Under the pieces are notes generated by a model, which saw only the letters and a list, made by a program, of their open reading frames with translations, was not told where the DNA came from and ran no database searches. 47,653 nt of DNA from positions 1-47,653 of the forward strand of contig CAIJWE010000006.1 in assembly GCA_903824295.1 (NCBI GenBank), written 5' to 3'. Position numbers and translations under genes: made by a program. Source of the stretch: an uncultured Chlorobiaceae bacterium. GTDB taxonomy: Bacteria > Bacteroidota > Chlorobiia > Chlorobiales > Chlorobiaceae. Every line of letters starts with the position of its first letter. Position 1 is the stretch's first letter. Below are positions 18,906 through 46,700 of this stretch, in pieces.

Positions 18906-19191
18906 CGTTCTATCTCCAAAAATAAATGATCGACATGAAAAATCCGGATCAGCAGATCTCCGTTTTGAACGATCTTCTGCTAACAAGGGATAAAGATTGC
19001 CCAATATACTTTTCCAAAAAGGAGCTCTAACTTTTCAGCGACCTCCCCGGCAATTGTTTTCGTATTCGTAACACAAACCCATTGGTTCGTGACGCCAAAG
19101 CCTCTACATTATTGTCATTCAATGTTCATTGTTCCCCATTTTTATGGCATTGTTTTTATGCAGCAAGAAAAAACCAGGATCAAATTTTTTT

Positions 19192-21312: not shown

Positions 21313-21370
21313 CGCAATGAGATGATTTATCAATCGAACTCATTGTAGTGTAACGATATAGTTTTATCGA

Positions 21371-21446
21371 GGAGGTCTTATTGAAAATAAATTTGGGAGA
21401 TTGTTTTTTTTTTTATAGAATTAGATTCATTGAATTCAGTAAATAA
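21371..21446 (+). promoter_or_regulatory. Possible 21-codon leader ORF upstream of pdaD
   Basis: A near-perfect Shine-Dalgarno (GGAGGT, 21371-21376) is followed 4 nt later by TTG (21381) and an open frame of 21 codons ending at TAA (21444-21446), 24 nt before the pdaD start. The frame contains a run of 11 T (three Phe codons) at about 21404-21414. It may be a leader peptide or a chance match; no conservation can be judged here. Confidence 0.3.
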
Positions 21447-21470
21447 CTGATTTACAAAGGAGATACGGCA

Positions 21471-22016
21471 TTGTCATTCGTTCCAGCAAAAATATTCTTT
21501 ACGAAAGGAGTGGGGCGCCACAAGGAGTATCTTTCGTCATTCGAGCTTGCCATGAGAGATGCTAAAATCGAGAAATGCAATCTGGTTACGGTGTCAAGTA
21601 TTTTTCCTCCTCACTGCGAGCGTATCAGTGTCGAGGATGGCGTAAAACTGCTTTCTCCGGGGCAGATAACCTTTGCTGTCATGGCCCGCAATGCAACCAA
21701 TGAGTTTAATCGCCTTATTGCCGCATCGGTTGGTGTTGCCATTCCGGCAGACGATACGCAGTATGGCTATCTGTCAGAACACCATCCTTATGGTGAGTCG
21801 GCCGAGCAGTCAGGGGAGTATGCCGAAGACCTGGCGGCTACGATGCTCGCAACCACCCTCGGTATTGAGTTTGATCCGAACAAGGATTGGGATGAACGAG
21901 AAGGGATTTACAAAATGAGTCACAAAATCATCAATTCATACAACATCACTGCGACCGCAGAGGGTGAAAATGGTCTGTGGACAACGGTTATCTCCTGCGC
22001 AGTACTTCTTCCGTAG
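21471..22016 (+). CDS. pdaD: Pyruvoyl-dependent arginine decarboxylase
   Basis: Converts arginine to agmatine and CO2, a route to putrescine. The 181-residue proenzyme is expected to self-cleave at VSSIFPP (Ser42/Ser43), making the pyruvoyl group. Other family segments are [40 protein letters not shown] and [13 protein letters not shown]. The start is TTG at 21471, supported by AAAGGAG 8 bp upstream. It lies between ppk and phoU on the same strand. No agmatine-processing enzyme (agmatinase or agmatine deiminase) is in the window. The decarboxylase and homospermidine synthase at 36.8-39.4 kb could use putrescine derived through this enzyme. Confidence 0.93.
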
Positions 22017-22054
22017 TTTTTTTTGTAAAGTACCACTAACCCTTATAAAATATT

Positions 22055-22711
22055 ATGTCAGAACGGCCCGTTCATGCGCAAATAACAGAACTTTCTGAAG
22101 TTCTTGTTCAACTTTCCAATAAAGTGGTGGAGAATTTTTTGCTTTCACTGCATGCGGTTGTACAGCATGATGAACATGGTACTGTGCAGAGAAAGTTTGC
22201 TGATTATGAGATTGATATGGAAGAGGCTGATCTCGAAAAACGATGCCTCTCTTTTCTCGCCCTTCAGCATCCGGTTGCAAGTGACCTGCGCACCATAATG
22301 GCCATTATCATGATCGATGATGAGCTGGAGCGTATTGGCGACCTCTCTCTTCATAGTCTTGATCTTATGCTTGAAATCACTCCCGGGATCATCGAATCCT
22401 TTGAGTTCGAAAAAATGGGTGTGCTTGCTGCCGAAATGGTTAAAAAGTCGATTGCAGCCTTTGCTGTAAAAGAGCAAGTTCTTGCTGATCAGGTCTCTGA
22501 TCTTGACAAAGAAATTGAGGTAATGCATCGTTCAGTCGTTAACAAGGCAACAGCTTTGATAAAAATGCAGGATGCTGATGTGAGTCAGCTTATGGCGATC
22601 TTGAGTATCTCCCGCTATATTGAGCATATTGCCGACCATGCTGTAAAGATTGCACAGGAGGTCATTTATCTCGTGACAGGTGAAATCATGCACAAAGATG
22701 CATCACATTAA
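22055..22711 (+). CDS. phoU: PhoU phosphate-signalling regulator
   Basis: A 218-residue all-helical protein with two PhoU repeats. The metal-binding E/DxxxD motifs appear in each half: IDMEEADLEKRCLSFLALQHPVASDLRTI and DDELERIGDLSLHSLD in the first, DKEIEVMHRSV with ILSISRYIEHIADHAVKIAQEVIYLVTG in the second. PhoU represses PhoR when phosphate is ample and limits Pst uptake. In bacteria it is normally the last gene of a pst operon, whereas here it follows ppk and pdaD and no pst genes are in view. It starts 38 bp after pdaD without a clear ribosome site. Confidence 0.93.
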   Translation: MSERPVHAQITELSEVLVQLSNKVVENFLLSLHAVVQHDEHGTVQRKFADYEIDMEEADLEKRCLSFLALQHPVASDLRTIMAIIMIDDELERIGDLSLHSLDLMLEITPGIIESFEFEKMGVLAAEMVKKSIAAFAVKEQVLADQVSDLDKEIEVMHRSVVNKATALIKMQDADVSQLMAILSISRYIEHIADHAVKIAQEVIYLVTGEIMHKDASH

Positions 22712-22781
22712 CGCGTACAAAATCACAGAAAAATAATTTGTTATTAAAAATGTCGATAACCTGATTTTTAACGGAGATACT

Positions 22782-23834
22782 ATGAGTAAAAAAGTGACGT
22801 TCGTCGATGTCATGGGGGAGCTTGATGGAAAAAGTGACATTGATTGTTCCAATAAGGGATTAACCTCGCTTGAAGGGTGTCCGGAGAGGGTGAAGGGAGA
22901 TTTCAACTGCTCAGGCAACAAGCTCACCACACTTGAGGGCTGCCCAAAAAAAATTAAAGGAGATTTTAACTGCTCAGGGAACGAGTTGACCTCACTCGAA
23001 GGTGCTCCTGAGGAGGTTAAAGGTGACTTTGATTGTTCCGGCAATCAACTGCCCTCTCTTTTGGGTTGTCCAGCATTCATTATGGGAGATTTTTCTTGTG
23101 CAGGAAATCAGTTGACCGTGTTCAAAGGCGAGGTTCTTACAAATACGGACACCCTTCTCGCGGGCGGCCTGGAGATAGTAGAAGGAGATTTCAACTGTTC
23201 AGGTAACAAGCTCACCTCACTTGAGGGGGCTCCTTTGATAGTGGGCGGTGATTATAACTGTTCAGATAATCAGCTTACAACACTCCAGGGTGCGCCAATA
23301 AAGGTGCAGGGTGATTTTGATTGTTCCCGCAACCAACTTGCTTCACTGGCAGGCAGCCCAGATGTTGTCAGGGGAGATTTTTCTTGCAGTGGAAACCAGT
23401 TAACCTCGCTTAAAGGAGTCTCTCGTGAAGTGCGCGGATCCTTCGATTGTTCAGCAAATCAGTTGACTTCTCTCAAAGGTGCTCCTGAAGAAGTCGGGGT
23501 ATTTGATTGTTCCGGCAATCAACTGTCATCCCTTAAAGGTGCTCCTCAAAAAGTTGACGGGCTTAATTGTTCAAATAATCAATTGATTTCACTCAAGTGG
23601 GCCCCTGAAAAGGTCAAGGGCAATGTTGACTGTGCATGGAACCAGCTCGCAACACTTGAGGATGCTCCCAAAAAGGTCAAGGGTAATTTTGATTGTTCAG
23701 GAAACCAGTTGACAGCATTTGAGGGTTCTTTGAAGAAAGTTGGAGGAGACTGTATTTGCACAGAGAACTCCCAACCCTTTCATGAAGAACAAGTTAGGAT
23801 GGTTTGTAATATCAAAGGCAACTGTTTTGTATAA
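22782..23834 (+). CDS. Cysteine-containing LRR-like repeat protein, paralogue 2
   Basis: A 350-residue paralogue of the protein at 17694-18905. It has a short leader (MSKKVTFVDVMGELDG, like the other's DVLGPLLDG) and about 15 copies of the 21-residue unit (GDFNCSGNKLTSLEGAP). One unit carries a 14-residue insertion (GEVLTNTDTLLAGG). It ends in the same cap (CICTEN...VCNIKGN). The ATG has ACGGAGAT upstream. It has no signal peptide. It follows phoU on the same strand, so the two paralogues bracket ppk-pdaD-phoU on outward-facing strands. Function is unknown. Regular stacking of one Cys per turn could give a column of thiols. Confidence 0.85.
   Translation: MSKKVTFVDVMGELDGKSDIDCSNKGLTSLEGCPERVKGDFNCSGNKLTTLEGCPKKIKGDFNCSGNELTSLEGAPEEVKGDFDCSGNQLPSLLGCPAFIMGDFSCAGNQLTVFKGEVLTNTDTLLAGGLEIVEGDFNCSGNKLTSLEGAPLIVGGDYNCSDNQLTTLQGAPIKVQGDFDCSRNQLASLAGSPDVVRGDFSCSGNQLTSLKGVSREVRGSFDCSANQLTSLKGAPEEVGVFDCSGNQLSSLKGAPQKVDGLNCSNNQLISLKWAPEKVKGNVDCAWNQLATLEDAPKKVKGNFDCSGNQLTAFEGSLKKVGGDCICTENSQPFHEEQVRMVCNIKGNCFV
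22840..23770 (+). repeat. 63-bp tandem repeats encoding Cys-LRR-like units
   Basis: About 15 degenerate 63-bp units coding the same 21-residue repeat as the minus-strand array at 17830-18870. Two consecutive units near 23490-23580 are shortened by one residue, and one unit near 23120-23180 is expanded. Confidence 0.85.
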
Positions 23835-23866
23835 CCACCTCTTTTGCTTTACCTGTTTACCGTACC

Positions 23867-23892
23867 AGGCAACAGCCTCATGGTTGTTGCCT
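23867..23892. terminator. Hairpin between convergent genes
   Basis: AGGCAAC (23867-23873) pairs with GTTGCCT (23886-23892) around a 12-nt loop, followed by TATTTCTG. It lies between the stops of the plus-strand LRR-like gene and the minus-strand RodZ-like gene. The T tract is weak, so this is a possible bidirectional terminator. Confidence 0.5.
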
Positions 23893-24530
23893 TATTTCTG
23901 AGTACCTGAAACAGGAAGAGACGCAGGAGCAAAGGAAGACGGAGATGCGTTTGGCTGCGCAGTGGATGGTTCAGCCTGCACTGATGAGGTTGCAAGCGGC
24001 GTTAAACGCTGTTTTTTTCTGAAAGATGTACCTCCTGAAGTGACGGCTGCTCTTGCAGTTAAAACTGGCAGGCGAGGAGCTGAAACTTCGGTACGATGGT
24101 CGCTATAACTGGAGCAGACGCCTATAAGCACGCCGACAATCATGCCGACGGTTAACGGTAGTATGGACTTCATAAGCTCCGATTTGTGTATGTTTATCTC
24201 TTCCCATGGTTTTTTGTTGTTCTGTTCGGAACCTGTTTCGACGATCTCATCCTTGTTAAATGCTCCGTGAAATTGGAGATCTTTTTTGCATTGTTCAAGA
24301 ATATCGTTGCAGTCGAGTTCCATAGCCTTTATGTATTCCTTTGCAAACGCATAGACATAGGTTTTTGGCAGAAAACTGAAATTCCCATCCTCCAATTGTT
24401 CCAGATATTGCTTTTTAATATTGGTCAACTGACTCACATCATCTACAGAAAGTTTTTTTCCCAGTCGGCCCTTTTTAAGCTCTTTTGCTAAAAACTCGAG
24501 TGAGTCGTTATTCGATAAGGTATCTGTCAT
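23892..24530 (-). CDS. RodZ-like helix-turn-helix membrane protein
   Basis: A 212-residue protein with an N-terminal HTH_25/RodZ domain (about residues 9-80: LAKELKKGRLGKKLSVDDVSQLTNIKKQYLEQLEDGNFSFLPKTYVYAFAKEYIKAM). A charged linker leads to one membrane helix (about 121-141, ILPLTVGMIVGVLIGVCSSY), and the rest is a Pro/Ser/Ala-rich periplasmic tail. RodZ links MreB to the cell-wall machinery. This version lacks the folded periplasmic domain (DUF4115) of full-length RodZ, although many short homologues exist. It could be a cell-shape factor or a membrane-bound regulator. Its neighbours give no strong clue. Confidence 0.8.
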   Translation of the reverse strand: MTDTLSNNDSLEFLAKELKKGRLGKKLSVDDVSQLTNIKKQYLEQLEDGNFSFLPKTYVYAFAKEYIKAMELDCNDILEQCKKDLQFHGAFNKDEIVETGSEQNNKKPWEEINIHKSELMKSILPLTVGMIVGVLIGVCSSYSDHRTEVSAPRLPVLTARAAVTSGGTSFRKKQRLTPLATSSVQAEPSTAQPNASPSSFAPASLPVSGTQK

Positions 24531-24630
24531 AAAAAGATCGGAATCATGGTATTCAACGTTTTTGTGCCTTATTCTGTTAATAAGTCGTTTGTTTTGGAAT
24601 CTGGTATTGCGAGTTCAAATATATCAGTAG

Positions 24631-24948
24631 TCAACTGACAGTCATTATCGTATTCAGCCGGCTCCAGATTGTTTCCATGATTACATGTGATGCTGAATCG
24701 GCATCATTCATAAAAAAAAGACTTTCAAAATTACCATGCTTTGAAATGGCACATGCTTTTATCAAGGCATGATTGCCTTCGAGTAGTCCGAGTTCATTAT
24801 GAATGTATCTCCCAAGAAAAAAACCGAGTTTCTGCAACTTGCCATCTGGAACAGAGCGGACTTTTATTTTCTCTTTGTCGCTCATTATCGAAATAATACG
24901 TTCTGCAGCAGCATTGACCGTCTGAGGCCAGGGCGATCTGTTATGCAT
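24631..24948 (-). CDS. DUF6794-like protein
   Basis: A 105-residue protein. WPQTVNAAAERIISIMSDKEKIKVRSVPDGKLQKLGFFLGRYIHNELGLLEGN followed by DADSASHVIMETIWSRL matches the pattern I know for DUF6794. That family has a (W)PxTVxEAV start, a middle LGxxIRNEFGLWxGN block and a terminal DxAS-xVIxExxWxRL block. No function is established for the family. It appears soluble, with no signal or membrane segment. It stands alone, 100 bp downstream of the RodZ-like start on the same strand. Confidence 0.7.
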   Translation of the reverse strand: MHNRSPWPQTVNAAAERIISIMSDKEKIKVRSVPDGKLQKLGFFLGRYIHNELGLLEGNHALIKACAISKHGNFESLFFMNDADSASHVIMETIWSRLNTIMTVS

Positions 24949-25176
24949 AATCTGAAAATGGTTAAATCATTTATTATCAACATTATATCATGTATAATCC
25001 GTGACATGCCAGTAAATATTGTCAATAATATATGAAGAGGAAGAGCAAATCTGTTTTGTTCTCATGGTTGTTTTCAAATAATTAACAGAACTCCGGATAG
25101 CTCGTATTTTGACCTGTTTTGTCATAAAAAGTTGAATGTCTGCTTTTTATTCTGGGTTAAAGGATAGCTCTTGTTT

Positions 25177-25509
25177 TTATGAAGAGATATGGCAGGAAAA
25201 AGTTCCGGGAACCTGCTCCTTTTCGAGATGAAGGTGAAGAAGATTCAGCAGTTGGTCTATTTCATGGAGCAGATTGCGATGGTTGAAGGCGAGAGCAACA
25301 AGAAATAAGGGAAAAGAAATATGCTCTTTTCGCAGCTTTCTGAGAACATTGCCCATTGCCTGTGCCATTAAGGGAAACGTTCCGGCTTTACTGATGGGGA
25401 GATTATTACCGATTTTTTCCACATCAGAACGATCGTAATCGCAAATGAAATAAAAATCTTCCTCACCTCTCCATTCTATGATGATTTTATAGGGCTTAAC
25501 GTCTTTCAT
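25177..25509 (-). CDS. Hypothetical protein (110 residues)
   Basis: I do not recognise this family. It is a predicted soluble protein with a strand-rich first half (YKIIIEWRGEEDFYFICDYDRSDVEKIG) and a helical, Leu- and His-rich second half (RNLLHEIDQLLNLLHLHLEKEQV). There is no signal peptide. No clear ribosome site precedes the ATG. It stands alone between the DUF6794 gene (228 bp away) and a 397-bp AT-rich gap. Reading-frame length and codon use look plausible for a real gene. Confidence 0.55.
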   Translation of the reverse strand: MKDVKPYKIIIEWRGEEDFYFICDYDRSDVEKIGNNLPISKAGTFPLMAQAMGNVLRKLRKEHISFPLFLVALAFNHRNLLHEIDQLLNLLHLHLEKEQVPGTFSCHISS

Positions 25510-25906
25510 TGTTGGCTTTTTTAGTCTTTTTAAGAAAAGTTACCTTCTGTTCCTACTTATATAAACGTTACCCGAATTTTAATCCAGCATGTATATGTTA
25601 CAGAAGTGCAAAACATTATTATCCCTGTTTTTTTGACATAGATTTTACAGTTTTGTAACAAAAAAGATGCATGAAACGGGGATAATAAAAACTTGCCAAC
25701 AAGATGAATTTACATTTTCTTAATAAAAAAGAAATTAATTTATGTGGTGAAATAGGACAATGTTGTTAATGATTGGACAGGCAAGGGAAATAATGGACTG
25801 ACAATTGAAATAATTAATCAGATACTGATTCTAAAACTATCATGAAGTATAAGTCAAAGTTTGGATTGCGTACCTTGTTGCTTTGTTTTGGTGTTGATGC
25901 GATGCC
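25510..25906. other. 397-bp AT-rich intergenic region with a long inverted repeat
   Basis: No credible ORF is seen. The region separates divergent genes and so should hold both promoters. It contains an imperfect inverted repeat: the arm at 25615-25630 (ATTATTATCCC-TG-TTT) against 25673-25688, about 14 of 16 positions complementary, around a 42-nt centre that itself holds the smaller dyad TTTTAC...GTAACAAAA. Confidence 0.5.
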
Positions 25907-26980
25907 ATGAGTCCCCAGACTAAAAAACATCCTCATCTTGATCGCTTGCTCAAAAAAGCGAAGCCTGTTACTCTTGATCATTCGTCGAAGGTCCTTGTCC
26001 TCAGCGACCTGCACATGGGTAATGGCGGACGGCTTGATGAGTTTCGGCAAAATTCCGAACTGGTTAAGACCATGCTCGAAAGATATTATTTGCCTGAACA
26101 ATATAGTCTTGTGCTTAATGGAGATATTGAAGAACTCTTCAAGTTCTCTCTTGAAAGTATTGCTCACCAGTGGAGTGACTTTTATGATCTTTTTTTAAAA
26201 TTTGGACAAAATGGTTTTTTCTGGAAAACATACGGGAATCATGATGCAGCGCTTCTTGATGAGAGGGAGTATCGGCTTGCTTCATCGCTTGTCGAATCAG
26301 TCAAATTTCATTATGGAGATGAAACACTCCTGCTCTTTCATGGTCATCAGGCCGCGCTGTTTTTGTGGCAAACCTGCTCCATGTTAAGCCGTTCGGTTAT
26401 ATTTTTTCTTCGCTATTTCGCCAAGCCTCTCGGAATAAGAAACTTTTCAGTTGCCTATAACAGTCGGCAACGATTTGCTATTGAGCAATCAATTTATGAG
26501 TTCTCAAACCAGGCGAAGATTGTTTCCATAATAGGTCATACCCATCGCCCCCTGTTTGAATCACTTTCAAAAGCTGATTTTCTGAATTACAGGATTGAGG
26601 AACTTTGCAGGGTGTATTCGACCGCTGATGTCGAAAAACGGGCATCCATCAAGCTGAGCATCGTTGAGCTGAAACGTGAGCTTGACGGATGTTACAAAAA
26701 GGGGAAGGTGACCGGGCTTCGGAGCGGCATTTATAATAATCTCACCATCCCCAGCGTTTTCAACTCCGGATGCACGATTGGAAAGCGTGGTATCACCGCC
26801 CTTGAAATCGAGGGGAGCACTATCAGGCTTGTTTACTGGTACAATGGCAAGCAGAATCGCAAGTTCATCAGTGAAAGAGACAATAGGCCAATGCAGCTTG
26901 AGTCGAGCGGTTTCTCAAGGATTGTTCTGAACGAGGATTCTCTCGACTATGTTTTTTCCCGTCTTCATCTTCTGGCTTGA
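25907..26980 (+). CDS. Metallophosphoesterase (calcineurin-like)
   Basis: A 357-residue cytoplasmic two-metal phosphoesterase. The full motif series is present: VLSDLHMG (DxH), LVLNGDIEELF (GDxxE), WKTYGNHDA (GNHD), LLLFHGHQ (H) and IIGHTHRP (GHTH). About 60 residues after the GHTH motif carry a mainly helical insert (YRIEELCRVYSTADVEKRASIKLSIVELKREL), which may fix substrate choice. The substrate is not evident: such enzymes act on nucleotides, nucleic acids, phosphoproteins or UDP-diacylglucosamine, and this one lacks the short LpxH layout. It stands alone and converges with the SLC13-type transporter gene. Confidence 0.88.
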   Translation: MSPQTKKHPHLDRLLKKAKPVTLDHSSKVLVLSDLHMGNGGRLDEFRQNSELVKTMLERYYLPEQYSLVLNGDIEELFKFSLESIAHQWSDFYDLFLKFGQNGFFWKTYGNHDAALLDEREYRLASSLVESVKFHYGDETLLLFHGHQAALFLWQTCSMLSRSVIFFLRYFAKPLGIRNFSVAYNSRQRFAIEQSIYEFSNQAKIVSIIGHTHRPLFESLSKADFLNYRIEELCRVYSTADVEKRASIKLSIVELKRELDGCYKKGKVTGLRSGIYNNLTIPSVFNSGCTIGKRGITALEIEGSTIRLVYWYNGKQNRKFISERDNRPMQLESSGFSRIVLNEDSLDYVFSRLHLLA

Positions 26981-27050
26981 AGTGCCACTGGAACATGTTC
27001 TGAAACGTTAACGATTTTTGGCGAAACGTATCGCACGAAGCCGATGCATA

Positions 27051-28511
27051 TCATGACATGAGCAATGACATGAGCGAAAAGAGAAGGGCAGTCAAGAGCG
27101 CGGCAATGAGGTTCATGAAAAAACCGGGTATGAGAATCATTTTGAGTGAAACATGTTCAATGCCTCCAAACGCAAGTGTGTTGGCGGCAGTTGCAACTGG
27201 TGTCATGAACGCGCTCGAAGCGGCGATGGTTATGGTCAGCAGCACGAGTATCGGTGAAAGGGAAGTTTGCTGCGCAAAAGCATTTGCCAATGGCGTAAAC
27301 ATGAGTATCAAGGCGGTATTGCTCAAGAGTTCAGAAGAAAAAATGATGATAATGATCAGTGATAGTAACTGTAGAAAATGATTGCCAAGCGGTTTCATTG
27401 CGTTAAATATGGTTGATTTTGCCAACGTCAGCAGATAGCCGTCAACCTCCGGAGTTGCCGGATTATCCCATGCTTTGAGGAGGGGAAACAGAATCATCCC
27501 CACTGCAACGAGCAGGAATATCCCGAAACACGGCAGATCTTTCATGATAAGATTGATTGAAAGAAACGAGTCAGCATTGGGTTTGTCGAGATTTGGTATT
27601 GGTTTGCGAAAAAAATAGTACCAGATGTGGTCAAATAATTGCTGAAGAAATCTCTCTATTGCATGGTAAATCCTGCTGAGAGGGATGTTCATGCGCGACT
27701 CCACTTCTCTACAGAGTCGGCTGATAAATATCAGGGGAAATGCCGAAAGATGAAGCAAAAGAAAAAGGGTATTCATAAAAAGTGCTTCAAGGCTCAAGCA
27801 CCTTTTCGGGATGATTAGAGCAACAACAAGAAATATGATTCCGTAGAGCAGAAAGCAAAGGTCAATACTATTCAGGCCGAAAAGAATCGGTGCTGGTTTG
27901 AAAAAAAATTGCAGGGCGGTCAATGTGCTGATCAGCAAAATGTTGCTTATGAGGAAAAACAGCGGTTTATGAGGCAGAATAGTCGGGGTGCCGCTACTTC
28001 TGGAAAAAATTGATGGAATACTGAATGGTTTTGCCGCAAAAAGAATAATGGTTCGTCCAAAAAAAAGAAGGATTAACGTTGCCGGCACCCCTGCTGCAAG
28101 CCAGGAAAAAAAAGTTATGAGGTGCCGACCCTCAACTGTAAAGAGTTCGGCCAAGGCAATGGCTAAAAGGTTTTGCGGACTTCCGGTAAGCGATGCCATT
28201 CCGCCACAGTTGGAGCCAAAGGTGAGTGCAAGATAGAGCAATGACGCGGCAATTCTTTTCTCATCTCTCAGCTCAACAAGTGAAAGCAGGCGATTGATGA
28301 CGGGAATCATGGAAATCACCACAATGGTATGGGAGATAAAGATAGAGAGTGTATAGGAGATCAAAAGAATTGCTGTTAATAAGGCGCTCAGGTTCTTGCC
28401 TGTGTGACGGAGCAGAAGTTCGATCAGCCTCTGATGCACACGGGCAGCAACCAGCATTTCCGAAAGCAGAAATCCGGTCAGTATAATAACGCTGTTTTGA
28501 AGGAGATTCAT
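27051..28511 (-). CDS. SLC13/DASS-type membrane transporter
   Basis: About 486 residues from the ATG at 28511, supported by GAGGG 6 bp upstream; a TTG start at 28529 is open but less likely. There are around ten to twelve hydrophobic helices. FGSNCGGMASLTGSPQN corresponds to the conserved helix-hairpin motif of the divalent anion:Na+ symporter group, and ITIAASSAFMTPVATAANTLAFGG matches the second SNT-like repeat (usually SxAFMLPVxTPxN). The substrate could be sulfate, a dicarboxylate or phosphate; the sequence does not decide. The central loop (LCREVESRMNIPLSRIYHAIERFLQQLFDH) is an unusual cytosolic insertion. It is divergent from the acyltransferase gene. Confidence 0.82.
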   Translation of the reverse strand: MNLLQNSVIILTGFLLSEMLVAARVHQRLIELLLRHTGKNLSALLTAILLISYTLSIFISHTIVVISMIPVINRLLSLVELRDEKRIAASLLYLALTFGSNCGGMASLTGSPQNLLAIALAELFTVEGRHLITFFSWLAAGVPATLILLFFGRTIILFAAKPFSIPSIFSRSSGTPTILPHKPLFFLISNILLISTLTALQFFFKPAPILFGLNSIDLCFLLYGIIFLVVALIIPKRCLSLEALFMNTLFLLLHLSAFPLIFISRLCREVESRMNIPLSRIYHAIERFLQQLFDHIWYYFFRKPIPNLDKPNADSFLSINLIMKDLPCFGIFLLVAVGMILFPLLKAWDNPATPEVDGYLLTLAKSTIFNAMKPLGNHFLQLLSLIIIIIFSSELLSNTALILMFTPLANAFAQQTSLSPILVLLTITIAASSAFMTPVATAANTLAFGGIEHVSLKMILIPGFFMNLIAALLTALLFSLMSLLMS

Positions 28512-28708
28512 CGTTGACCCTCTTTTCAATTCATCATGGTACCGAAAGCATCATCATACTACAGCTTGCTTCTCCCGGCACAAAGAGTGAAAGCAAAGTT
28601 CACAGAAATGTTGCATGGCCGTAACTTTTCCCCAACACTATTTTGTTTTTTTACAGTTGTGCAGTTTAAGGTTCTCCTGGGTCATGTATCGGGTACTGAA
28701 AGAGTCTT

Positions 28709-30520: not shown

Positions 30521-30702
30521 AGAATCCCCATCGGGAGCGTTTGGCATACCTCATATTTTTCCAGTAGATAGTGGGTGTAAAGAGAGTTTTCTTTTCTGTA
30601 ACCAAAACGTTTCAGTGCGTTAATAATGGTGATTGGTGAATGCAGTATCATTTTGCTGAAGTTTTTTTGATCATTCAATCAATTAAATCTGGGAGTCCAA
30701 AA

Positions 30703-33700
30703 ATGCCAAATGAAGGTATTTACAAACTGATAAATTCCAGTCTGGATGGGTTGGGCAATAGAGTGAGTTTGTACTTTGATGTTCCGCTTGATTCAATCAA
30801 TCTTCCGCAGACAGGGCAGTTCACCGTAACCAATGGAGGTATGGTTCAGTCTGTCAGCAGCCTCCAGGTGGTTAATAATCAGGTGATTCTGACGCTGGCA
30901 GCCACGCTGGATCTGCATCAGGCAGTCACAGTCTCATATGTAGATTCTACCGCAGGTAATGATGTTAACGCTGTTCAGGACAAAAATGGTAACGATATAG
31001 CATCGTTTCTCAATGTTGAGGTGAGCAACACACTTGGTCTGACTGCAAATGGAGCTGAATCCTTCGCCTTTGCCTCATCAATCTCCCTTGTGGGAGCTGA
31101 AATCTCGGCATTTGATGCTGCGAGTGGGCGACTTTTTGTCACCTCATTTACCGGTTTGCAGGTTATCAGTGTTGATGAGCACCTTCAGATGACGCTCCTT
31201 GGCACCATTGCAATTGGCACTAATGATCTGAACAGTGTTGCGGTTAAAAACGGTATAGTTTCTGTCGCTGTGGCCGCCGCAGACAAGACCCTGCCAGGAG
31301 CGGTCTATTTCCTCGATGCTGACGGGACGGTAGGCGATGCATCGATGATTATTGGCAGCGTCACCGTAGGGGCAAATCCCGACATGCTGACATGCAGTGC
31401 AGACGGCAAAACGATTCTTGTCGCCAACGAAGGTGAAATGGCCAGCATGACCAGTAACCCCGAAGGCTCGGTCAGCATTATCGACCTCAGTAATGGTGTC
31501 GCTGCCGCAACGGTCAACACTGCTTCATTTACAGCGTTCAACGATAAATTTGCAGAATTAAAGGCAGAAGGTGTTCGCCTGTTCGATGGAATTACTGTTG
31601 CCAATGACCTCGAACCGGAATACATCAGTATCTCTCCCGACGGGAAAACCGCGTTCGTAACCCTGCAGGAGAGTAACGCGATTGGCATTCTCGATATCGC
31701 TACAGCCACCTTTACCGATATTGTTCCTCTCGGGTTCAAAAGCTGGCTTGGCCTGCCGTTGGACGGCAGCGACAAGGGCACCTACACACCACGGACAGAC
31801 TTACCGGTATTGGGTCAGTACATGCCTGATGGAATCGGCTCTTTTACAGGTTCTGACGGCAACGCCTACTACATTATTGCCAACGAAGGAGATGATCGTA
31901 GTGATTTCATGTCACCTGATGCCGTGAAGCTTAAAGATATAGGCACTTACGTAGATTCAGTCAGCGGTCATAACTTTTCATTAGACCCTCAGTTGATTGC
32001 AAAGTATGGTAATCTGCTGAGCACCACCGCAATAGGCAACTTGAGAATCTCTCTTGCACCCGGCAACAACGGTGACATTAATGGCGACGGAGTTATCGAA
32101 CAAATTCAGGCTTATGGTGCGCGATCATTCAGCATTCTTAATGCCGAAGGTACTATCGTTTTCGACAGTGGGTCGCAGATTGAGCAGTTTGCGGCCTCAA
32201 CCGGCGCCTTTAATTCGGCTGATCCCGCGACCTCCGGTATTTTTGTTGACACGCGTTCCGACAATAAAGGCCCCGAGCCAGAAGGCATTGCAATCGGGCA
32301 GATCGGGGGAAAAACTCTTGCATTCGTTGGTTTGGAGCGTGGAGCAGGCGCTATCATGGTTTATGATGTAACTGATCCCCGGCATGTCAGTTTTGTTCAA
32401 TCACTGAGTCATCCTGATGATTCAACAGCTCTCACAGGTGATGGGTTGGAGTCCGGGGCCGGCCCCGAAGGGCTGACCTTTGTTTCCGCTGATGCATCTC
32501 CCAGTGGCCAGAATCTACTCTTTGTTTCCAACGAGTATTCAAAAAATGTCAGCCTGTTCACGATAACAAATCTGAACGATGCCCCGACGGTAGAGAGCAT
32601 GATTGCTGATGTATCGACATCTGAAGATGCAGCGTTCAGCCTGATGGTGCCCGTTGGCACGTTCAATGATGTTGATGCTGGTGACAGCCTGACCTACAGT
32701 GCAACACTGGCTGATGGCACTCCACTGCCCTCGTGGCTGAAATTCGACAGTGAACTTCAGGGTACACTGAAATACTCAACAACCGCGACAGATACCTACT
32801 TCGCACAATCAGGGAAGTGGCCATCGACAGACTCAGCATCGGCCATTACGGCTATGGTTACCGGTGAAAAAACGGATGCTGGTAATATTGCATGGCAAAG
32901 CGGTGACCCGGTAAATGGAGAGATTAAGACGATTGCCGAAACATTGCGCGACGATCTTGGCTTTGCCATTGGTGTGGCCAGCACGGTGCCTTTTTCCCAT
33001 GCAACACCCGCAGGAGTTGTAAGCCACAATGTCAACCGCAACAACTATCAGGATATTGCGCACGAAATTCTGTTCGACACACAGCCTGATGTCGTTATTG
33101 GCGGCGGACTGGACGGTTTGTTTGCAAAGGCAGTCACCAACGCAGCGAAGGCTGACACTGATCTTGACAACAATGGCTTCAATGACGACTACGATGCGTT
33201 CAAAGCCGGAACCGATGGAACCGATTACGTTTTTGTCGAACGTGCCAGCGGCACCGATGGCGGTACGGCCCTTGCTGATGCGGCCGCTCAGGTTAACCTG
33301 GCAAATGGGGATAAACTGTTCGGCCTGTTCGGCACATCAAGTGGCAACTTTGAATATTATGAAGTGGCCGATACACCCGGCACGGCCACGCTTACTCGCA
33401 GCACCACCGATGGCACTCCGGGTGTTGATGAAGATCCGACCATGACTGAAATGACATCGGCAGCGCTTTCAGTGCTTAATCAGGATCAGGATGGCTTTTT
33501 TGCGATGTTCGAGCAGGGCGACATCGACTGGACTAACCACGCCAACGATTATGAAAACATGGTGGGAGGTGTTGTTGATCTGGAGAATGCGGTCACAGCA
33601 GCAGAAAATTTGGTCACCTCCGGAACTGAAGGCATGAATTGGTCAAATACCCTGATGATTGTCACCAGCGACCACTCGAACAGCTACCTGCGCCTTCAGG

Positions 33701-35586
33701 ATGAGCTCGGCAAGGGCAATCTGCCAGTGCAGACCGTGGTGGCAGGCAAGCAAACCTATGCCGATGGAGAGGTAACATACGGCACAACCGGCCACACGAA
33801 TGAACTGGTCGCGCTGCAGGCACGGGGAGTTGGCGCAGAACTGTTCAACGAGTATGCTGGCGAGTTGTATCCCGGAACCAATATCGTGGATAATACCAAG
33901 ATCTACGAGGTCATGATGAGTGCGGCAAAAGATCTTGGTGTAGAGCATATCGTCCTGTTCATCGGTGATGGTATGAATATCGAACATGAAATCGCCGGCA
34001 GCCAGTACCTTTACGGAAAAGATTTTGGCCTTACCTGGCAGGACTGGGGTCAGTTGGAAGATGGATGGAGTGGCTATGCAAGCACCTGGGATGTTACATC
34101 ATATAATACTTATGCAGTGGCTGCGGGTGCAGCGAGCTACAACGCCAGCACCTTCGACCCTCTGATCGGTTACGATCCGTCGAAGGGTGGTGAAACTCCG
34201 CTGCCAATCGGTGTGCTGTTCAGTGGAACACCAACAAACGATGAGGTTGGTTCACTCGACATCAAGGTCACGGCCACCGACGAAAGCGGCGCTTCAGCCA
34301 GTGATCTCTTTACCCTTACGGTGGAGAATCAGGCTCCGGAAATGTTGTCGAGTACACCGAATGATGTTGCTGATAATGTGGTGGTGATGTCTGACATCGT
34401 ATTGACTTTCAGTGACGTCATCGAACGTGGAGAGGGTACGGTTACCATTCATGAAGGTTCCGCTCAAGGCACTATCGTTGAAAGTTTCGACATGGCGACA
34501 AGCGAAAACCTTACTATATCGGGTACTGTGCTTCGTGTCGATCCGTCTGCCCAGCTCGAATACGGGACCAATTACGTTCTTACTGTGGACGAAGGCGCTG
34601 TGACTGACACGTGGGGTGCTGGAAATGACGTTTCATCGCTGGATTTCGCAACCAGGGAGTCACATGTTGAGCCTGATGTTCATGACATGGCTGGCAGTAT
34701 TACGTTCTGGAAAAGTGGAGAAGCTTTGGATAATGTGATTGCAACGGTTACCCCTGTTGGTCAGCAGTTGGTTGAATTCCGCAATTTTCAGGTCGGTGTA
34801 GATGGTACCAGAACCGTTGAAATCTGGAAGACCGTGACGGACAAGTCAGTAGAAAGTATTGACCTTGAACTTGTGTTACAGGATGGTTCTCAAGCAAGCT
34901 GGACAGATGCCGAAGGAACACCTGCTGGTTGGAATTCACTGGCGAATACAGAAGCCTCTTCCGGCCATTTCTTAATTTCCGGTTATGGGTTGGAGAAAAG
35001 CGGTGGAGCACTGTCGACTCAGTCGGTAAAACTTGGGCTTCTGACATTGAGTGGCGGGGTCGATCAGGATTCGTTCAAAATTGCCTTGGCCTCGGGCGAA
35101 GTTGGCGACACTGAACTTGCTCCTTTTATCATTACCTCTTCAGGTGTTGATGGTCTTTTTGAATGCCGTGACCTGAATGACGGAAGTTATGCATTGGAAT
35201 TTGGCAAGTCAATTGAGTCGATCGGTAACGCTGTGCAGGCCAGCGATGCTCTTGCAGCGCTCAAACTGGCGGTTGGCATGAATCCGAATGAAGATGGCAG
35301 TGCGGTGATGGCATTCCAGTATCTTGCGGCAGATGTTAATGAGGATGGCAGGGTCAGGGCTTCAGACGCGCTTAATATCCTGAAAATGGCGGTTGGCATC
35401 GACACTGCCCCCGATCAGGAATGGATGTTCATGCAGGCAAGCGTTGCCAACGAGTCCATGAGCCGGACTTCGGTGCAATGGTCTGATTATCTGTCGGACT
35501 TCACGATAGCCCAGGATACCGAGCTCGATTTGATTGGAGTTATCAAGGGCGATGTGAACGGCAGTTGGGTGGCAGAGGCTGTCTGA
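30703..35586 (+). CDS. Multidomain exoprotein: choice-of-anchor I, circularly permuted alkaline phosphatase, Ig-like and dockerin-like modules
   Basis: 1627 residues from the ATG at 30703 (GGGAG 7 bp upstream; an earlier in-frame ATG at 30640 has no site). Order: SwmB-like repeat (1-105), choice-of-anchor I/beta-propeller-like domain (about 120-620), first half of an Ig/cadherin-like (He_PIG) domain (623-686), alkaline phosphatase segment (687-1172), second half of the Ig-like domain (SGTPTNDEVGSLDIKVTATD), Big_5-like domain (about 1215-1320), then a C-terminal region with dockerin-like repeats (DVNEDGRVRASDALNILKMAVG). There is no signal peptide, so export may be type I; no exporter is in the window. 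The phosphatase part starts at the nucleophile (TDSAS, Ser711) and ends with the normally N-terminal LFIGDGM block (Asp1089). All expected ligands are present. It may release phosphate outside the cell. Confidence 0.85.
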   Translation: MPNEGIYKLINSSLDGLGNRVSLYFDVPLDSINLPQTGQFTVTNGGMVQSVSSLQVVNNQVILTLAATLDLHQAVTVSYVDSTAGNDVNAVQDKNGNDIASFLNVEVSNTLGLTANGAESFAFASSISLVGAEISAFDAASGRLFVTSFTGLQVISVDEHLQMTLLGTIAIGTNDLNSVAVKNGIVSVAVAAADKTLPGAVYFLDADGTVGDASMIIGSVTVGANPDMLTCSADGKTILVANEGEMASMTSNPEGSVSIIDLSNGVAAATVNTASFTAFNDKFAELKAEGVRLFDGITVANDLEPEYISISPDGKTAFVTLQESNAIGILDIATATFTDIVPLGFKSWLGLPLDGSDKGTYTPRTDLPVLGQYMPDGIGSFTGSDGNAYYIIANEGDDRSDFMSPDAVKLKDIGTYVDSVSGHNFSLDPQLIAKYGNLLSTTAIGNLRISLAPGNNGDINGDGVIEQIQAYGARSFSILNAEGTIVFDSGSQIEQFAASTGAFNSADPATSGIFVDTRSDNKGPEPEGIAIGQIGGKTLAFVGLERGAGAIMVYDVTDPRHVSFVQSLSHPDDSTALTGDGLESGAGPEGLTFVSADASPSGQNLLFVSNEYSKNVSLFTITNLNDAPTVESMIADVSTSEDAAFSLMVPVGTFNDVDAGDSLTYSATLADGTPLPSWLKFDSELQGTLKYSTTATDTYFAQSGKWPSTDSASAITAMVTGEKTDAGNIAWQSGDPVNGEIKTIAETLRDDLGFAIGVASTVPFSHATPAGVVSHNVNRNNYQDIAHEILFDTQPDVVIGGGLDGLFAKAVTNAAKADTDLDNNGFNDDYDAFKAGTDGTDYVFVERASGTDGGTALADAAAQVNLANGDKLFGLFGTSSGNFEYYEVADTPGTATLTRSTTDGTPGVDEDPTMTEMTSAALSVLNQDQDGFFAMFEQGDIDWTNHANDYENMVGGVVDLENAVTAAENLVTSGTEGMNWSNTLMIVTSDHSNSYLRLQDELGKGNLPVQTVVAGKQTYADGEVTYGTTGHTNELVALQARGVGAELFNEYAGELYPGTNIVDNTKIYEVMMSAAKDLGVEHIVLFIGDGMNIEHEIAGSQYLYGKDFGLTWQDWGQLEDGWSGYASTWDVTSYNTYAVAAGAASYNASTFDPLIGYDPSKGGETPLPIGVLFSGTPTNDEVGSLDIKVTATDESGASASDLFTLTVENQAPEMLSSTPNDVADNVVVMSDIVLTFSDVIERGEGTVTIHEGSAQGTIVESFDMATSENLTISGTVLRVDPSAQLEYGTNYVLTVDEGAVTDTWGAGNDVSSLDFATRESHVEPDVHDMAGSITFWKSGEALDNVIATVTPVGQQLVEFRNFQVGVDGTRTVEIWKTVTDKSVESIDLELVLQDGSQASWTDAEGTPAGWNSLANTEASSGHFLISGYGLEKSGGALSTQSVKLGLLTLSGGVDQDSFKIALASGEVGDTELAPFIITSSGVDGLFECRDLNDGSYALEFGKSIESIGNAVQASDALAALKLAVGMNPNEDGSAVMAFQYLAADVNEDGRVRASDALNILKMAVGIDTAPDQEWMFMQASVANESMSRTSVQWSDYLSDFTIAQDTELDLIGVIKGDVNGSWVAEAV

Positions 35587-40745: not shown

Positions 40746-43718
40746 GTGCAACTTCGACCTTCAATGAAACCCCAAGCTCATGCTCTCCACCGTAAACCTG
40801 ACGGCAGCCTGCTGCAACCAATGAGCATCACGGCTCATCATGGCAAGTATTTTGCGTACGACCTGACCCGTCGGGCGGCGAATGGAATGGATCGGTTGTC
40901 GATGGCGCTGTTTGATGCTGCTGTTGATCTGAATCCGCATCAGATTGAGGCTGCACTTTTTGCCTTGCACTCTCCCCTTTCGAGGGGTGTGATTCTGGCT
41001 GATGAGGTTGGTCTTGGCAAGACGATTGAGGCGGGCATTGTACTTTGCCAGTTTTGGGCGGAACGCAAGCGGCGATTGCTGGTGATTTGCCCAGCTTCGT
41101 TGCGCAAGCAGTGGGCGCTTGAGTTACAGGAGAAGTTCAACTTGCCGACACTGGTGCTTGATGCCAAGGCCTGGCGTGAGGCGAAACGGAATGGTCGCGA
41201 CCCTTTGCATGACAAGAGTGTGCTCATCATCTCCATGAATTATGCCCATGTTTTGCGGGAGGAGTTGAAGAGCATCGCCTGGGATCTTGTGGTGATTGAT
41301 GAAGCCCACAAGCTGCGTAATGCCTACCGGCCAAGCAACAAGGTTGGTCAGGGTATACGCTGGGCTACCGAGGATTGCCGCAAGCTTCTATTGACCGCAA
41401 CACCACTCCAAAACTCTCTGCTTGAACTCTACGGGCTTTCAACCCTCATTGACGAGCAATTGTTCGGTGATGCGGACTCTTTTCGTTCCCAATACGCCAG
41501 TGCAGGGAGCGATCTCGAAGCCCTGCGCCTGCGTCTGTCGGGATTCTGCAAACGTACCTTGCGAAATCAGGTAACAGAATATATCCGTTATACCGAGCGC
41601 CATCCAATTACCCGTCCGTTCTCTCCAAGCGACAATGAACATGCGCTTTACGAAGCGGTATCCGGGTTTCTCCAGCGCACAGAGAGTTATGCGCTTCCCA
41701 AGCGGCAGCGCCACCTGACCGCACTTATTCTGCGCAAACTGCTTGCCTCATCGTCGCAGGCCATTGCGGCGACACTCGACACGTTGAGGATCCGGCTTGA
41801 AGCACTTCGTGACGAGAAGTCTCTGAACGACAGGGAGTTCACCGAGTCACTTCTTGAGGCGGAGGAGATGGAGAGTGAGCTGCTTGATGAGATTTTGGCG
41901 GAGCCTGCGGCAGACGAAACCGATCAAGAGCCACTTGCTCCTGACCGGAAGAAGCTGCGTGAAGAGATTGAAATTTTGGAACGACTTGCCACCTGGGCTC
42001 GCAGTATCGGTACTGATACGAAAACCAAAAGCCTGCTGACGGCTCTCGATATTGGTTTCGAGCAGATGCAATCAACCGGAGCCTTGCGCAAGGCTTTGAT
42101 TTTCACTGAATCGCGACGCACACAAGAGTATCTCAAGAGCTTTCTGGACTCTCATGGCTACAGCGGCAAGGTGGTGCTTTTCAACGGCACCAATGGTGGA
42201 GCGGAAGCCACTGAAATTTATCGGCAATGGGTTGACAAGAACCGTGAAAGCGGTCGCGCATCGGGTTCGCGTGCTGTGGATGTGCGGACGGCGCTGATTG
42301 AACAGTTCCGGGATGAGGGCTCCATCATGATTGCCACTGAAGCTGCTTCAGAAGGGATCAACCTCCAGTTCTGCTCTCTCGTTATCAACTACGACCTGCC
42401 CTGGAATCCGCAGCGTATTGAACAGCGGATCGGTCGCTGCCATCGCTACGGCCAGCAGCACGATGTTGTGGTTATCAACTTCCTGAACGAGCGCAACGAG
42501 GCTGACCGGCGTGTGCTGGAACTACTTGGCGAAAAGTTCAACCTTTTCAGCGGAGTATTCGGCGCTTCCGATGAAGTGCTTGGCACCATTGAATCAGGGG
42601 TTGACTTTGAACAGCGCATTCTCGCCATCTATCAGGAGTGCCGCACTCCGGAAGAGATTGATGCAGCATTTCATACCCTGCAAGCTGAAATGGATGAGCA
42701 AATCCGCAGCCGCATGGCCGACACCCGCCGGGCGCTCTTTGAAAACTTCGATGAAGATGTGCATCAGCGCCTTCGGATGCAGCTCAATGACGCAAAGGCC
42801 CAGCTCGACCGTTTCAGCCAGCGCTTCTGGTCACTGACCCGTTTCATGCTTGATGGCGATGCCCGTTTTAACGATGATGCGTTAAGCTTTGACCTCCAGC
42901 GAACCCCGAGCCCCGATATTCTCACCGGACGTTACCATCTCATTTCAAAATCGACACCGGGAGCAATGCAGGATGGCGGTAATGGTGCCGGTGAAGAACA
43001 GAACCGATTCCTCTACCGCCTCTCCCATCCGCTTGGTGAGCATGTTCTGGAGAAGGCAAAGGCACTTCCAACTCTTCCGGCAGAGATTCTCTTTGACCTT
43101 TCACAACATGCAGCCCGCATTCATGCCGTAGAAGCGCTCCGGGGAAAAAAAGGATTTCTCACCCTTACCCGTCTGGTTGTTGAATCTTACCAGCGTGAAG
43201 AGTACCTTCTCTTTTCAGGATTTGATGAAAGCGGTGTTTCGTTCGATCAGGAGACGATGGAGAAGCTCTTCATCTGTCCGGGAAGTGTCGCTGGCACCAT
43301 CGACATCCCGGCAGCAGTTGAACAACGTCTTGTGGCCGAATCGGAGCAGCACGCAAGAGCTACCGTAAGCCGTTCACTCGAAGAGAACAGCGTCCACTTC
43401 AACCTGGCCCGTGAAAAGCTGGAAAAGTGGGCTGACGACATGGTGTTTTCAGCCGAAAAAACGCTTGCCGATACCAAAGAGCAGATCAAGGCACAGCGGC
43501 GTCAGGCAAGGCAGGCCGTCACCCTTGATGAACAGCACGCAATTCAGCAGCAGATACAAAAACTTGAAAAGCAGCAACGTCGGCACCGACAGGAGATTTT
43601 TAAGGTTGAAGATGAGATTATGGAAAAACGTGACACCCTGATTGCTTCGTTGGAAAGGCGGCTTGCACAAAACAGTACCACCGAAGAGCTGTTTACCATT
43701 CGCTGGGCTGTACAATAA
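40746..43718 (+). CDS. SNF2/RapA-like helicase of a restriction or defence locus
   Basis: A 990-residue superfamily 2 DNA translocase. Motif I is ADEVGLGKTIEAG (86-97), motif II VVIDEAHKLRN (183-192), motif III LLTATPLQN (215-223). The C-terminal helicase half has ALIFTESRRTQEYLKSFL and the ATEAASEGINLQFCSLVINYDLPWNPQRIEQRIGRCHRYGQ block. The GLGKTIEAG form and the RIGRCHRYGQ end are RapA/HepA-like. A long coiled coil lies near the C-terminus (TLDEQHAIQQQIQKLEKQQRRHRQEIFKVEDEI). No nuclease motif is visible in this chain. The start is GTG at 40746; an ATG at 40764 is an alternative. The methyltransferase gene starts 21 bp downstream, so the two act together. Confidence 0.88.
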   Translation: MQLRPSMKPQAHALHRKPDGSLLQPMSITAHHGKYFAYDLTRRAANGMDRLSMALFDAAVDLNPHQIEAALFALHSPLSRGVILADEVGLGKTIEAGIVLCQFWAERKRRLLVICPASLRKQWALELQEKFNLPTLVLDAKAWREAKRNGRDPLHDKSVLIISMNYAHVLREELKSIAWDLVVIDEAHKLRNAYRPSNKVGQGIRWATEDCRKLLLTATPLQNSLLELYGLSTLIDEQLFGDADSFRSQYASAGSDLEALRLRLSGFCKRTLRNQVTEYIRYTERHPITRPFSPSDNEHALYEAVSGFLQRTESYALPKRQRHLTALILRKLLASSSQAIAATLDTLRIRLEALRDEKSLNDREFTESLLEAEEMESELLDEILAEPAADETDQEPLAPDRKKLREEIEILERLATWARSIGTDTKTKSLLTALDIGFEQMQSTGALRKALIFTESRRTQEYLKSFLDSHGYSGKVVLFNGTNGGAEATEIYRQWVDKNRESGRASGSRAVDVRTALIEQFRDEGSIMIATEAASEGINLQFCSLVINYDLPWNPQRIEQRIGRCHRYGQQHDVVVINFLNERNEADRRVLELLGEKFNLFSGVFGASDEVLGTIESGVDFEQRILAIYQECRTPEEIDAAFHTLQAEMDEQIRSRMADTRRALFENFDEDVHQRLRMQLNDAKAQLDRFSQRFWSLTRFMLDGDARFNDDALSFDLQRTPSPDILTGRYHLISKSTPGAMQDGGNGAGEEQNRFLYRLSHPLGEHVLEKAKALPTLPAEILFDLSQHAARIHAVEALRGKKGFLTLTRLVVESYQREEYLLFSGFDESGVSFDQETMEKLFICPGSVAGTIDIPAAVEQRLVAESEQHARATVSRSLEENSVHFNLAREKLEKWADDMVFSAEKTLADTKEQIKAQRRQARQAVTLDEQHAIQQQIQKLEKQQRRHRQEIFKVEDEIMEKRDTLIASLERRLAQNSTTEELFTIRWAVQ

Positions 43719-43739
43719 TTTACTGACAGAGAAAAGTGT

Positions 43740-46700
43740 ATGAACCAGAACTATGAGAAGCTGAAAGCGTTATTGACAGAACTCTTTCAGCTCGACCAGC
43801 CCGATCTTGACTTTGGTCTTTATCGCATCATGCACGCCAAAAGCGCCGAGGTTTCACAGTTTCTTGACAAGGATCTCTTCCCTCAGGTGAAAGCAGCTTT
43901 CAGCCTGTACAAGAGCTCAGATAAAGCTGAAATCGAAAAGGAACTCAATAAGGTTATTGCAGGCGTTGAGGCGGCAGGAATGTATCCCGAGCAGTCACCG
44001 AAGGTGCAGGCATTGCGTGAGCAACTCCAAAATGAGGCAGTGGACACGGGCACGCTTGAGAGTGAAGTGTACGATCACCTTTTCAGCTTTTTTCGTCGTT
44101 ACTATTCCGAAGGGGATTTTCTGGCCAAACGGGTCTACAAGCCGGGTGTCTACGCCATTCCCTACGAAGGCGAAGAGGTGATGCTTCACTGGGCCAACAA
44201 GGATCAGTACTACATCAAAACCAGTGAGTATCTGCGTGACTACGCTTTCCGTCTGCATCCGAATAGTGAGCAAAACACCATGCGGGTGCATTTCCGGCTG
44301 GCCGATGCTGCCGAAGGAGAGCACGGGAATGTAAAAGTGACAGAGGGCAAAGATCGTCGATTCAGACTTGCTGAAGAAAACAGATTATCCCTTGAAGATG
44401 GAGAGCTCATCATCCGCTTTACCTATCAGCCCGACCCTGCCAAACAGAAGGAGCTGAACAGTGCAACAGAAGAGACGATTCTGACTTCCGGCGATACTGA
44501 ATTGGCAGAGTGGATCACGGAGCTTCGGAAACTGAACGTGAGGTCTGATGGCTCCTCCTCCGGTACTCGCCTGCGACTGCATCTTGACCGCTACACCGCC
44601 AGGAACACCTTTGATTACTTTATCCACAAGGATCTTGGCACTTTTCTGCGACGCGAGCTTGATTTCTTCATTAAAAACGAGATCATGCACCTTGACGATG
44701 TGGAAAACGAAACGGTTTCCCGTGTTGAACAGTACCTTTCAAAAATCAAGGTCATCCGTAAAATCGGAGGCAAGATCATCGATTTTCTTGCCCAACTGGA
44801 GGAGTTCCAGAAAAAGCTCTGGCTGAAGAAAAAGTTTGTGGTCGAGACGAACTACTGCATCACGCTTGACCGCATACCCGAAGAGTTTTATCCGGAGATT
44901 GCTACCAGCCAGAAGCAGTGGAAGCAGTGGCGAACGCTTGGGATGCTTGAAACCCCCAACGAAGAAAAACCGGAGCTGTTCAGTCAGGCCGAAGTTGGCA
45001 GCGTTGAGTACCTGAAGGCGCATCCCTATTTGATGGCGGACAGTGCACTTTTTGATGAGGTTTTTAAACAGGGACTACTCTCAGCGATTGATAATCTGGA
45101 TGAAAGCCTTGATGGCCTGTTGATTCATGGGGATAATTTTCATGGATTGAATCTGTTACAGGCGAGGTATAAGGAGCAGGTTAAGTGCATTTACATAGAC
45201 CCGCCGTACAACACGGGGGGGGATGGTTTCTGTTACAAGGATAGTTACCAACACGCATCGTGGCTGACCATGATCTTGGAAAGATTAGACGCATCATATC
45301 CCTTACTGACAGAAAACAGTGTGATGTTTTCAAGCATTGATGCTCTTGAGAGGAATCATCTTGAGAGTGTGATGGATAGTGTTTTTGGTCGAAAAAACCG
45401 TGTAGAGGAGATTATCTGGGTTCAAAATACAACCAAGAATCAATCACCCACCTATTCCACCAATCATGAGTATGTGGAAGTCTACTCTAAAAATATTGAC
45501 CTTGTAAAATCCGATTTTTCAATGTTTCGCGAGTCAAAGCCGGGTTTTATTGAGATAATGGAACTCATCGAAAAGATAAACCCGCTCTATCCTTCAATAA
45601 CAAAAGTGGAGTCAGAACTCAGGAACCTCTTTCGGGCTCATAAAACTGAAATGGCTGATGATGGGAACGAACCCATGGACGAATGGAAAGGGATATACAA
45701 TTACAATCGAGCAGAGTATCGTGATGGATCCGGCAGATATGTTGATGCATCAGATGCAAAAAAGCTGAACGCAAAGATTTGGATATGGAGGGAAGATAAT
45801 CCGTCAATGCCCCAGATAAAGGAAGATTCCCAGAAAGCAGAGTTTCGGGATCCTAATAATTCGGCTTATAGATTTTATACTCCAACACATCCAAAGATAG
45901 GAAAACCTTGTCCAGCCCCTAAAACAGGATGGCGTTGGCCATATAATCCACTTGGCAAACAAAAGAGTTGTTTCTCAGAGCTTGTTGCTGATCATAGGAT
46001 AGCGTGGGGCGATGATGAGAACAAAATTCCTCAGACAAAAAGATTTCTTCACGAGGTTGAGACCAACGTTTCAAAGTCTGTCGTTAACGATTATACCGAT
46101 GGCGAAAAGGAGTTGACCAATCTTTTTGGCAAATCGCGTACCTTTGGAGGTCCAAAACCAACCACATTGATCGAGCGATTCTGCCAACAGGCATCCGTAT
46201 CGAAAGATTTTGTATGCGATTTCTTTGCTGGTTCCGGCACCACCGCTCACGCCGTTATCTCTCTGAATCGACAGGATCAGGGTAAACGCAAATACATTCT
46301 TATAGAACAGGGTGAACACTTCGACACTGTCCTGAAACCCCGCATCCAGAAAGTTGTCTACTCCGCAGAATGGAAAGAGGGCAAAGCTAAAGCTCCTCAG
46401 ACGGGTATTTCACACGCATTCAAGGTTCTGAAGCTCGAATCCTACGAAGATGCCCTCAACAACCTCGAAACCAGCCGTACCAGACAGCAGAAACTTGCTC
46501 TCGATTCGCCAGAAGCCCAAGGTGCTGATGGCTTCAGGGAGCAATACCTCCTGCACTACATGCTTGACGTGGAGACACGCAGCAGTCAGTCACTGCTTAA
46601 CATTCAGGCGTTCACTGACCCAACGGCCTACCGGCTCAAGGTCAAGCGTCCCGGTTCAGATGAAAGCGGTGAAGTGAACATTGATCTTCTTGAGACCTTT

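Follow-up and report, generated by a model that had tools for sequence, protein, structure and literature searches.

The window analysed here, a stretch of 47,653 nucleotides from an uncultured Chlorobiaceae bacterium, very probably encodes a natural circularly permuted alkaline phosphatase of the PhoA family that takes the place of the beta-hairpin turn in an Ig-like He_PIG domain. The host protein, which belongs to a Chlorobium-like green sulfur bacterium, is large and probably exported, with a likely role in phosphate scavenging. An earlier note on this DNA had proposed that a permuted enzyme lies within an Ig-like domain, and all of the motifs that it named are found in the reading frame, in the order that it gave (Table 1). 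Its residue numbering lags 21 behind that of the full frame and matches a start at the second methionine, M22. Residues are numbered below in the full frame, in which the nucleophile is S732 and the aspartate of the IGDGM block is D1110.

Table 1. Features of the permuted phosphatase protein and of phosphate-related genes in the window
Feature	Position	Strand	Basis or remark
Multi-domain phosphatase protein, ORF	30640-35586	+	1648 aa; probable start M22 at nt 30703
SWM_repeat-like domain, residues 39-104	30754-30951	+	Pfam PF13753, E 2e-7
Choice-of-anchor I domain, residues 152-642	31093-32565	+	PF22494, E 1.5e-74; NF038117, 446 bits, cut-off 300
He_PIG Ig-like host domain, first half, residues 648-707, ends WLKFDSELQ	32581-32760	+	PF05345 positions 1-73
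Alkaline phosphatase C-terminal part, placed first, residues 708-1099	32761-33936	+	PF00245 positions 42-313
Nucleophile Ser732 (E. coli S102)	32833-32835	+	Motif position, residue mapping
Alkaline phosphatase N-terminal part, placed last, residues 1100-1192, IGDGM block	33937-34215	+	34-48% identity to canonical N-terminal blocks; rotated alignment
Metal ligand Asp1110 (E. coli D51)	33967-33969	+	Motif position, residue mapping
He_PIG host domain, second half, residues 1193-1230, begins LFSGTP	34216-34329	+	PF05345 positions 60-95 at 34216-34323
Big_5 Ig-like domain, residues 1230-1338	34327-34653	+	PF13205, E 8.5e-13
Weak dockerin-like motif, residues 1562-1580	35323-35379	+	PF00404, 14.4 bits, below cut-off 22.9
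Canonical PhoA-type alkaline phosphatase, ordinary order, separate gene	13638-15083	-	PF00245, 225 bits, positions 4-421
CHAD-domain protein	15985-17556		
Polyphosphate kinase (PPK1)	19129-21312		
PhoU	22055-22711		
Calcineurin-like phosphoesterase	25907-26980		

The phosphatase blocks run from the nucleophile through the metal ligands and the C-terminal helix to the IGDGM block. The motifs PSWLKFDSELQ, GTLKYST, TDSASA, HATPAG and EQGDIDW begin at 32728, 32761, 32827, 32998 and 33511, respectively, followed by VTSDHS (33661), GTTGHTNE (33781), KIYEVMMSAAKD (33898), VEHIVLFIGDGM (33940), GYASTWDV (34072) and FSGTPTND (34219). About two residues separate the original C-terminal helix, IYEVMMSAAKD, from the original first strand, VEHIVLFIG. 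The new termini lie about 20 residues ahead of the nucleophile, in the loop between Asp51 and Ser102 of the E. coli numbering.

The segment was rotated in silico by cutting it at 1099/1100 and moving residues 1100-1192 ahead of 708-1099. Compared with non-permuted homologues (L041-L046 and both units of L040), as the earlier note had suggested, the rotated segment gives a single alignment of about 490 aa with 44-47% identity, whereas the native order gives two separate alignments with the same set. Every core block is present in a multiple alignment of the rotated segment with its canonical relatives. The moved N-terminal block of 93 aa scores 61-95 bits against these relatives, and chance similarity is ruled out because the best of 2,000 shuffles reached 28.5 bits. 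In the native order, the Pfam PF00245 match (115 bits, cut-off 24.4) covers profile positions 42-313 only, so that the permutation is hidden from Pfam alone; full-length coverage in the ordinary order is regained only by rotation. Judged by these alignments, the segment is a permuted relative of PF00245 (PhoA type) and no ordinary-order member of it. The permutation proposed earlier is borne out by the rotated alignment together with the ligand invariance, the recurrence in 24 genomes, the purifying selection and the structure model described below.

From the motifs, we take D1110 to correspond to D51 of the E. coli enzyme, D731 to D101, S732 to S102, T789 to T155, R800 to R166, E958 to E322, D963 to D327, H967 to H331, D1011 to D369, H1012 to H370 and H1052 to H412. 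S732, T789, R800, E958, D963, H967, D1011, H1012 and H1052 are held by the C-terminal part. Across 38 units (27 permuted units of Chlorobiaceae, 3 of an array and 8 canonical ones), the ten catalytic and metal residues never vary, and the nucleophile Ser, Arg166 and the metal ligands (two zinc sites, one magnesium site) are present in 38 of 38. This invariance supports a complete set of active-site residues. Presumably, the serine, the arginine and most ligands come from the C-terminal part, while the N-terminal part would dock onto it and supply Asp51. The permuted protein would then hydrolyse phosphomonoesters by the usual two-zinc, one-magnesium mechanism. The window enzyme shares all catalytic and metal residues with PhoA-type PF00245 members (E. 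coli PhoA, the Vibrio and TAB5 enzymes) and, by model and Foldseek, their fold; it differs from them in that its chain is rotated at the Asp51-Ser102 loop and is embedded in another domain with no free ends. Positions 153 and 328 (E. coli numbering) are His and Trp in all units, the same pair as in structure 1y7a of the E. coli D153H/K328W mutant.

Alternatively, the two pieces might be truncated, non-functional remnants, a start-less domain and an orphan start block that are kept as structural filler. One partial domain is all that Pfam reports, and relatives with tandem phosphatases exist, both of which fit such a reading. However, the two pieces complement each other, no unit deviates at Asp51 or at any other ligand, and the numbers of C-parts and N-parts are equal in multi-unit proteins. 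Furthermore, dN/dS (NG86) is about 0.05-0.12 for both the C- and the N-part in pairs with estimable dS, indicating that both parts are under strong purifying selection. We therefore regard non-functional remnants as very improbable; the idea of a family with two truncated phosphatase domains, raised in the earlier note as a possible objection, fails when tested.

To return to the permuted enzyme, its structure was predicted by AlphaFold2 with residues 635-1238 as input and 36 alignment rows, mostly of close relatives. The prediction, proposed earlier as a check, yields a confident single fold for the permuted segment, with a mean pLDDT of 83.8 and a pTM of 0.83. In the moved N-part the ten-residue means of pLDDT are mostly 81-97; the loop between the Ig domain and the enzyme is less confident, with blocks at pLDDT 57-76. 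Ig strands flank the enzyme at model residues 67-74 and 556-562. The control, canonical relative L045 (16 rows), gives a pLDDT of 75.4 and a pTM of 0.84, and its initial strand-helix-helix-strand-helix order reappears at the end of the permuted enzyme model. Foldseek finds alkaline phosphatases for both models, as the best PDB matches over about 440 columns for the permuted one (E 7e-16) and over about 520 for the control (E 1e-19), with TM-scores, normalised to the small TAB5 enzyme, of up to 0.69 and 0.77, respectively. The Foldseek alignment is sequential, and a shorter alignment of the permuted model would be expected if the moved part cannot be matched in sequence order. The results agree with a correctly folded enzyme in which an alignment of this kind does not see the moved part. 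According to the models, the permuted segment has an alkaline phosphatase fold, a confident single fold as good as that of the control. The objection in the earlier note that the IGDGM part might be unable to complete the active site is thus countered, though indirectly.

Even with a permuted chain, the N-part could be swapped, so that the active site is completed between neighbouring chains or units and not inside a single one. Dimers are common among alkaline phosphatases, which favours this arrangement, and the tandem modules of Ig domain and nested phosphatase, written Ig{AP} below, as well as the array of L039, would permit it. On the other hand, the majority of relatives contain just one unit, the model of a single chain gives one confident fold, and the near linker-less junction favours closure inside the unit. 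A swap seems improbable to us, and we prefer an active site closed within each unit.

The flanks of the phosphatase were compared with the He_PIG profile PF05345, of which positions 1-73 precede the enzyme and 60-95 come after it. In a relative from a single-contig genome (L072, G041), a protein of about 2039 aa consists of an Ig{AP} module, an uninterrupted Ig domain (LPGWLSFNAGTRTFSGTPDNDEVGS) and a second Ig{AP} module. The joined halves from the window align almost gap-free with this uninterrupted sister domain, so that the enzyme, 485 residues long, takes the place of the hairpin turn, and its new ends connect to the two strands of that hairpin. On this alignment, the flanks are complementary halves of one He_PIG (cadherin-like Ig) domain, which they rebuild when joined, and the sister domain is the corresponding empty site. 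The split profile and the uninterrupted domain agree with the nesting put forward in the earlier note. The whole Ig{AP} unit is duplicated in L072, L074 and L075, with 93-99.8% DNA identity between the copies. A 3779-aa frame of L075 (G053) carries two Ig{permuted alkaline phosphatase} modules, and a very long polypeptide of L032 (1-8778) combines phytase-like and 5'-nucleotidase domains with two such modules.

Tandem gene copies that were collapsed or mis-joined, in the assembly or by rearrangement, could merely give the appearance of a permuted order. The window genome is a 2.85 Mb draft of 131 contigs (its close named relatives are MAGs of Chlorobiaceae, among them a Chlorobium record), and the corresponding region of G010 splits over two contigs, as is typical of repeats. 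A junction profile was searched against 98 Chlorobiales genomes, as a search for homologues in the same order had been suggested. The junction is essentially wholly spanned in 24 of them, all within two genera of one family, and is partially matched at a contig edge in 2 more. Two of the genomes with the full junction are single contigs of 2,797,276 and 2,289,249 bases. The recurrence of the identical junction across two genera (24 genomes, two of them single contigs) and the low dN/dS across the region argue against an artefact, whose probability we consider negligible; misassembly, which the earlier note had named as a possible refutation, is thereby rejected. In a phylum-wide sample of 296 genomes, the full junction is confined to that one Chlorobiales family. 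A junction-region fragment with two in-frame stops (G080:C48:6902-7063) is likely a remnant of a further copy.

Several related forms bear on the origin of the permuted enzyme. Single canonical enzymes are found in Aminicenantes, Saccharicenans, Bryobacteraceae and Desulfobacteraceae, and four Deferribacterota genomes have a canonical tandem of two enzymes in about 1,000 aa, with one copy interrupted. In one Deferribacterota genome (G1314), the open frames suggested a fresh permutation; this candidate was rejected, as it is a tandem copy broken by a stop codon and a frameshift. This tandem canonical gene (L107, G1314:C1:426500-432500) has one in-frame stop and one frameshift, for which decay or sequencing error is possible. 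A Chloroflexota MAG carries an array of three units in the permuted phase (L039, 5803-12081), which starts with a C-part right behind a hydrophobic, signal-like N-terminal stretch and ends with an N-part; BACON and choice-of-anchor I domains come next. A search of 298 genomes from the class and 400 from the phylum of this MAG found no similar array. Among the matches listed from phage and plasmid records, the permuted form is absent; these matches are single pieces covering at most about 78% of the query.

A tandem of the form N1-C1-N2-C2 that lost N1 and C2 would leave C1-N2, i.e. the observed order. It is plausible that the permutation arose by this route, from a tandem duplicate after loss of the first N-part and the last C-part, considering that extant tandem and array forms are known. 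Since both new ends are adjacent, the permuted enzyme could then have entered the Ig hairpin and later been copied as an Ig{AP} module. The Deferribacterota tandems and the L039 array belong to other phyla and are possible intermediates, not direct ancestors. An origin without a tandem duplicate, in which a cut gene was inserted directly or shuffled, would be in line with the lack of a canonical tandem ancestor within the 98 Chlorobiales genomes. We consider it unlikely, however, because canonical tandems and permuted-phase arrays exist in the same subfamily and the L039 array has the identical cut loop.

The same cut loop and the common choice-of-anchor I partner suggest that Chlorobiaceae and L039 share one permutation event by transfer. 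In a tree of the rotated sequences, the Chlorobiaceae and L039 units group together on one side of a branch (SH-aLRT 99), opposite the canonical ones; its root is arbitrary, and two separate events may have occurred. We lean towards a broader picture in which all possible steps survive, namely the single canonical enzyme, the canonical tandem, the permuted-phase array, the Ig-nested permutant and the duplicated Ig{AP}, and in which it would be the permutation that allowed the enzyme to move as an Ig cassette among exported proteins with several phosphatases. With candidate intermediates in living species, the tandem-duplication route is directly testable by comparison and assay.

We found neither a natural permuted alkaline phosphatase nor this protein in the open-licence literature. 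The main text of a 2026 domain-insertion survey (PMC13114784) mentions neither phosphatases nor Ig-like domains. For E. coli alkaline phosphatase, an engineered circular permutant has been described (Kojima, Ayabe and Ueda 2005, J Biosci Bioeng 100:197); according to the title, as cited in PMC2395249 and PMC8513176, it keeps high specific activity. That permutant is lab-made, unlike the window enzyme, and the title gives no hint of domain nesting. The choice-of-anchor I domain, well above cut-off in the window protein, is common to proteins of NF038117 and PF22494; among the matches listed, these members match over that domain only, whereas the window protein fuses it to a nested permuted phosphatase. 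When natural permutation and nesting coincide in a metalloenzyme that builds its active site from both chain ends, the protein rearrangement is a demanding one, and domain annotation overlooks such enzymes, of which Pfam reports one partial domain.

The role of the protein is most likely the scavenging of organic phosphate outside the cytoplasm, as the phosphate genes in the window and the phytase-like/5'-nucleotidase fusion of L032 suggest. Ecologically, this suggests that green sulfur bacteria have a large and probably exported phosphatase, near polyphosphate and phosphate genes. The window also encodes response regulator/kinase pairs, and the phosphate-related neighbourhood at 8818-28529 further includes a response regulator, a histidine kinase and a CitMHS transporter. 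Neither a Pho-box-like site nor a sigma-70-like promoter was found upstream, and no Sec-type signal peptide is evident by eye at the start of the 1648-aa protein. Some relatives (L074, L076 and L081) have RTX-like glycine/aspartate repeats near the C-terminus, from which we infer export by a type I system.

A conserved glycine-rich hydrophobic C-terminal tail, e.g. GTVLAGVGALGVLAWLIF, is seen in L038, L072, L076, L081, L005 and L006; it has no PEP-CTERM Arg cluster and is possibly an unrecognised sorting signal. At the far end of the window, the region 40746-47653 contains an SNF2 helicase (best match DrmD) and a large type III-like methyltransferase, as well as a PDC-S02 protein that the window end truncates after its start, and is probably a defence system. 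At 111-5663, a two-partner secretion exoprotein with a TPS domain and ten GLUG motifs adjoins its ShlB-type transporter.
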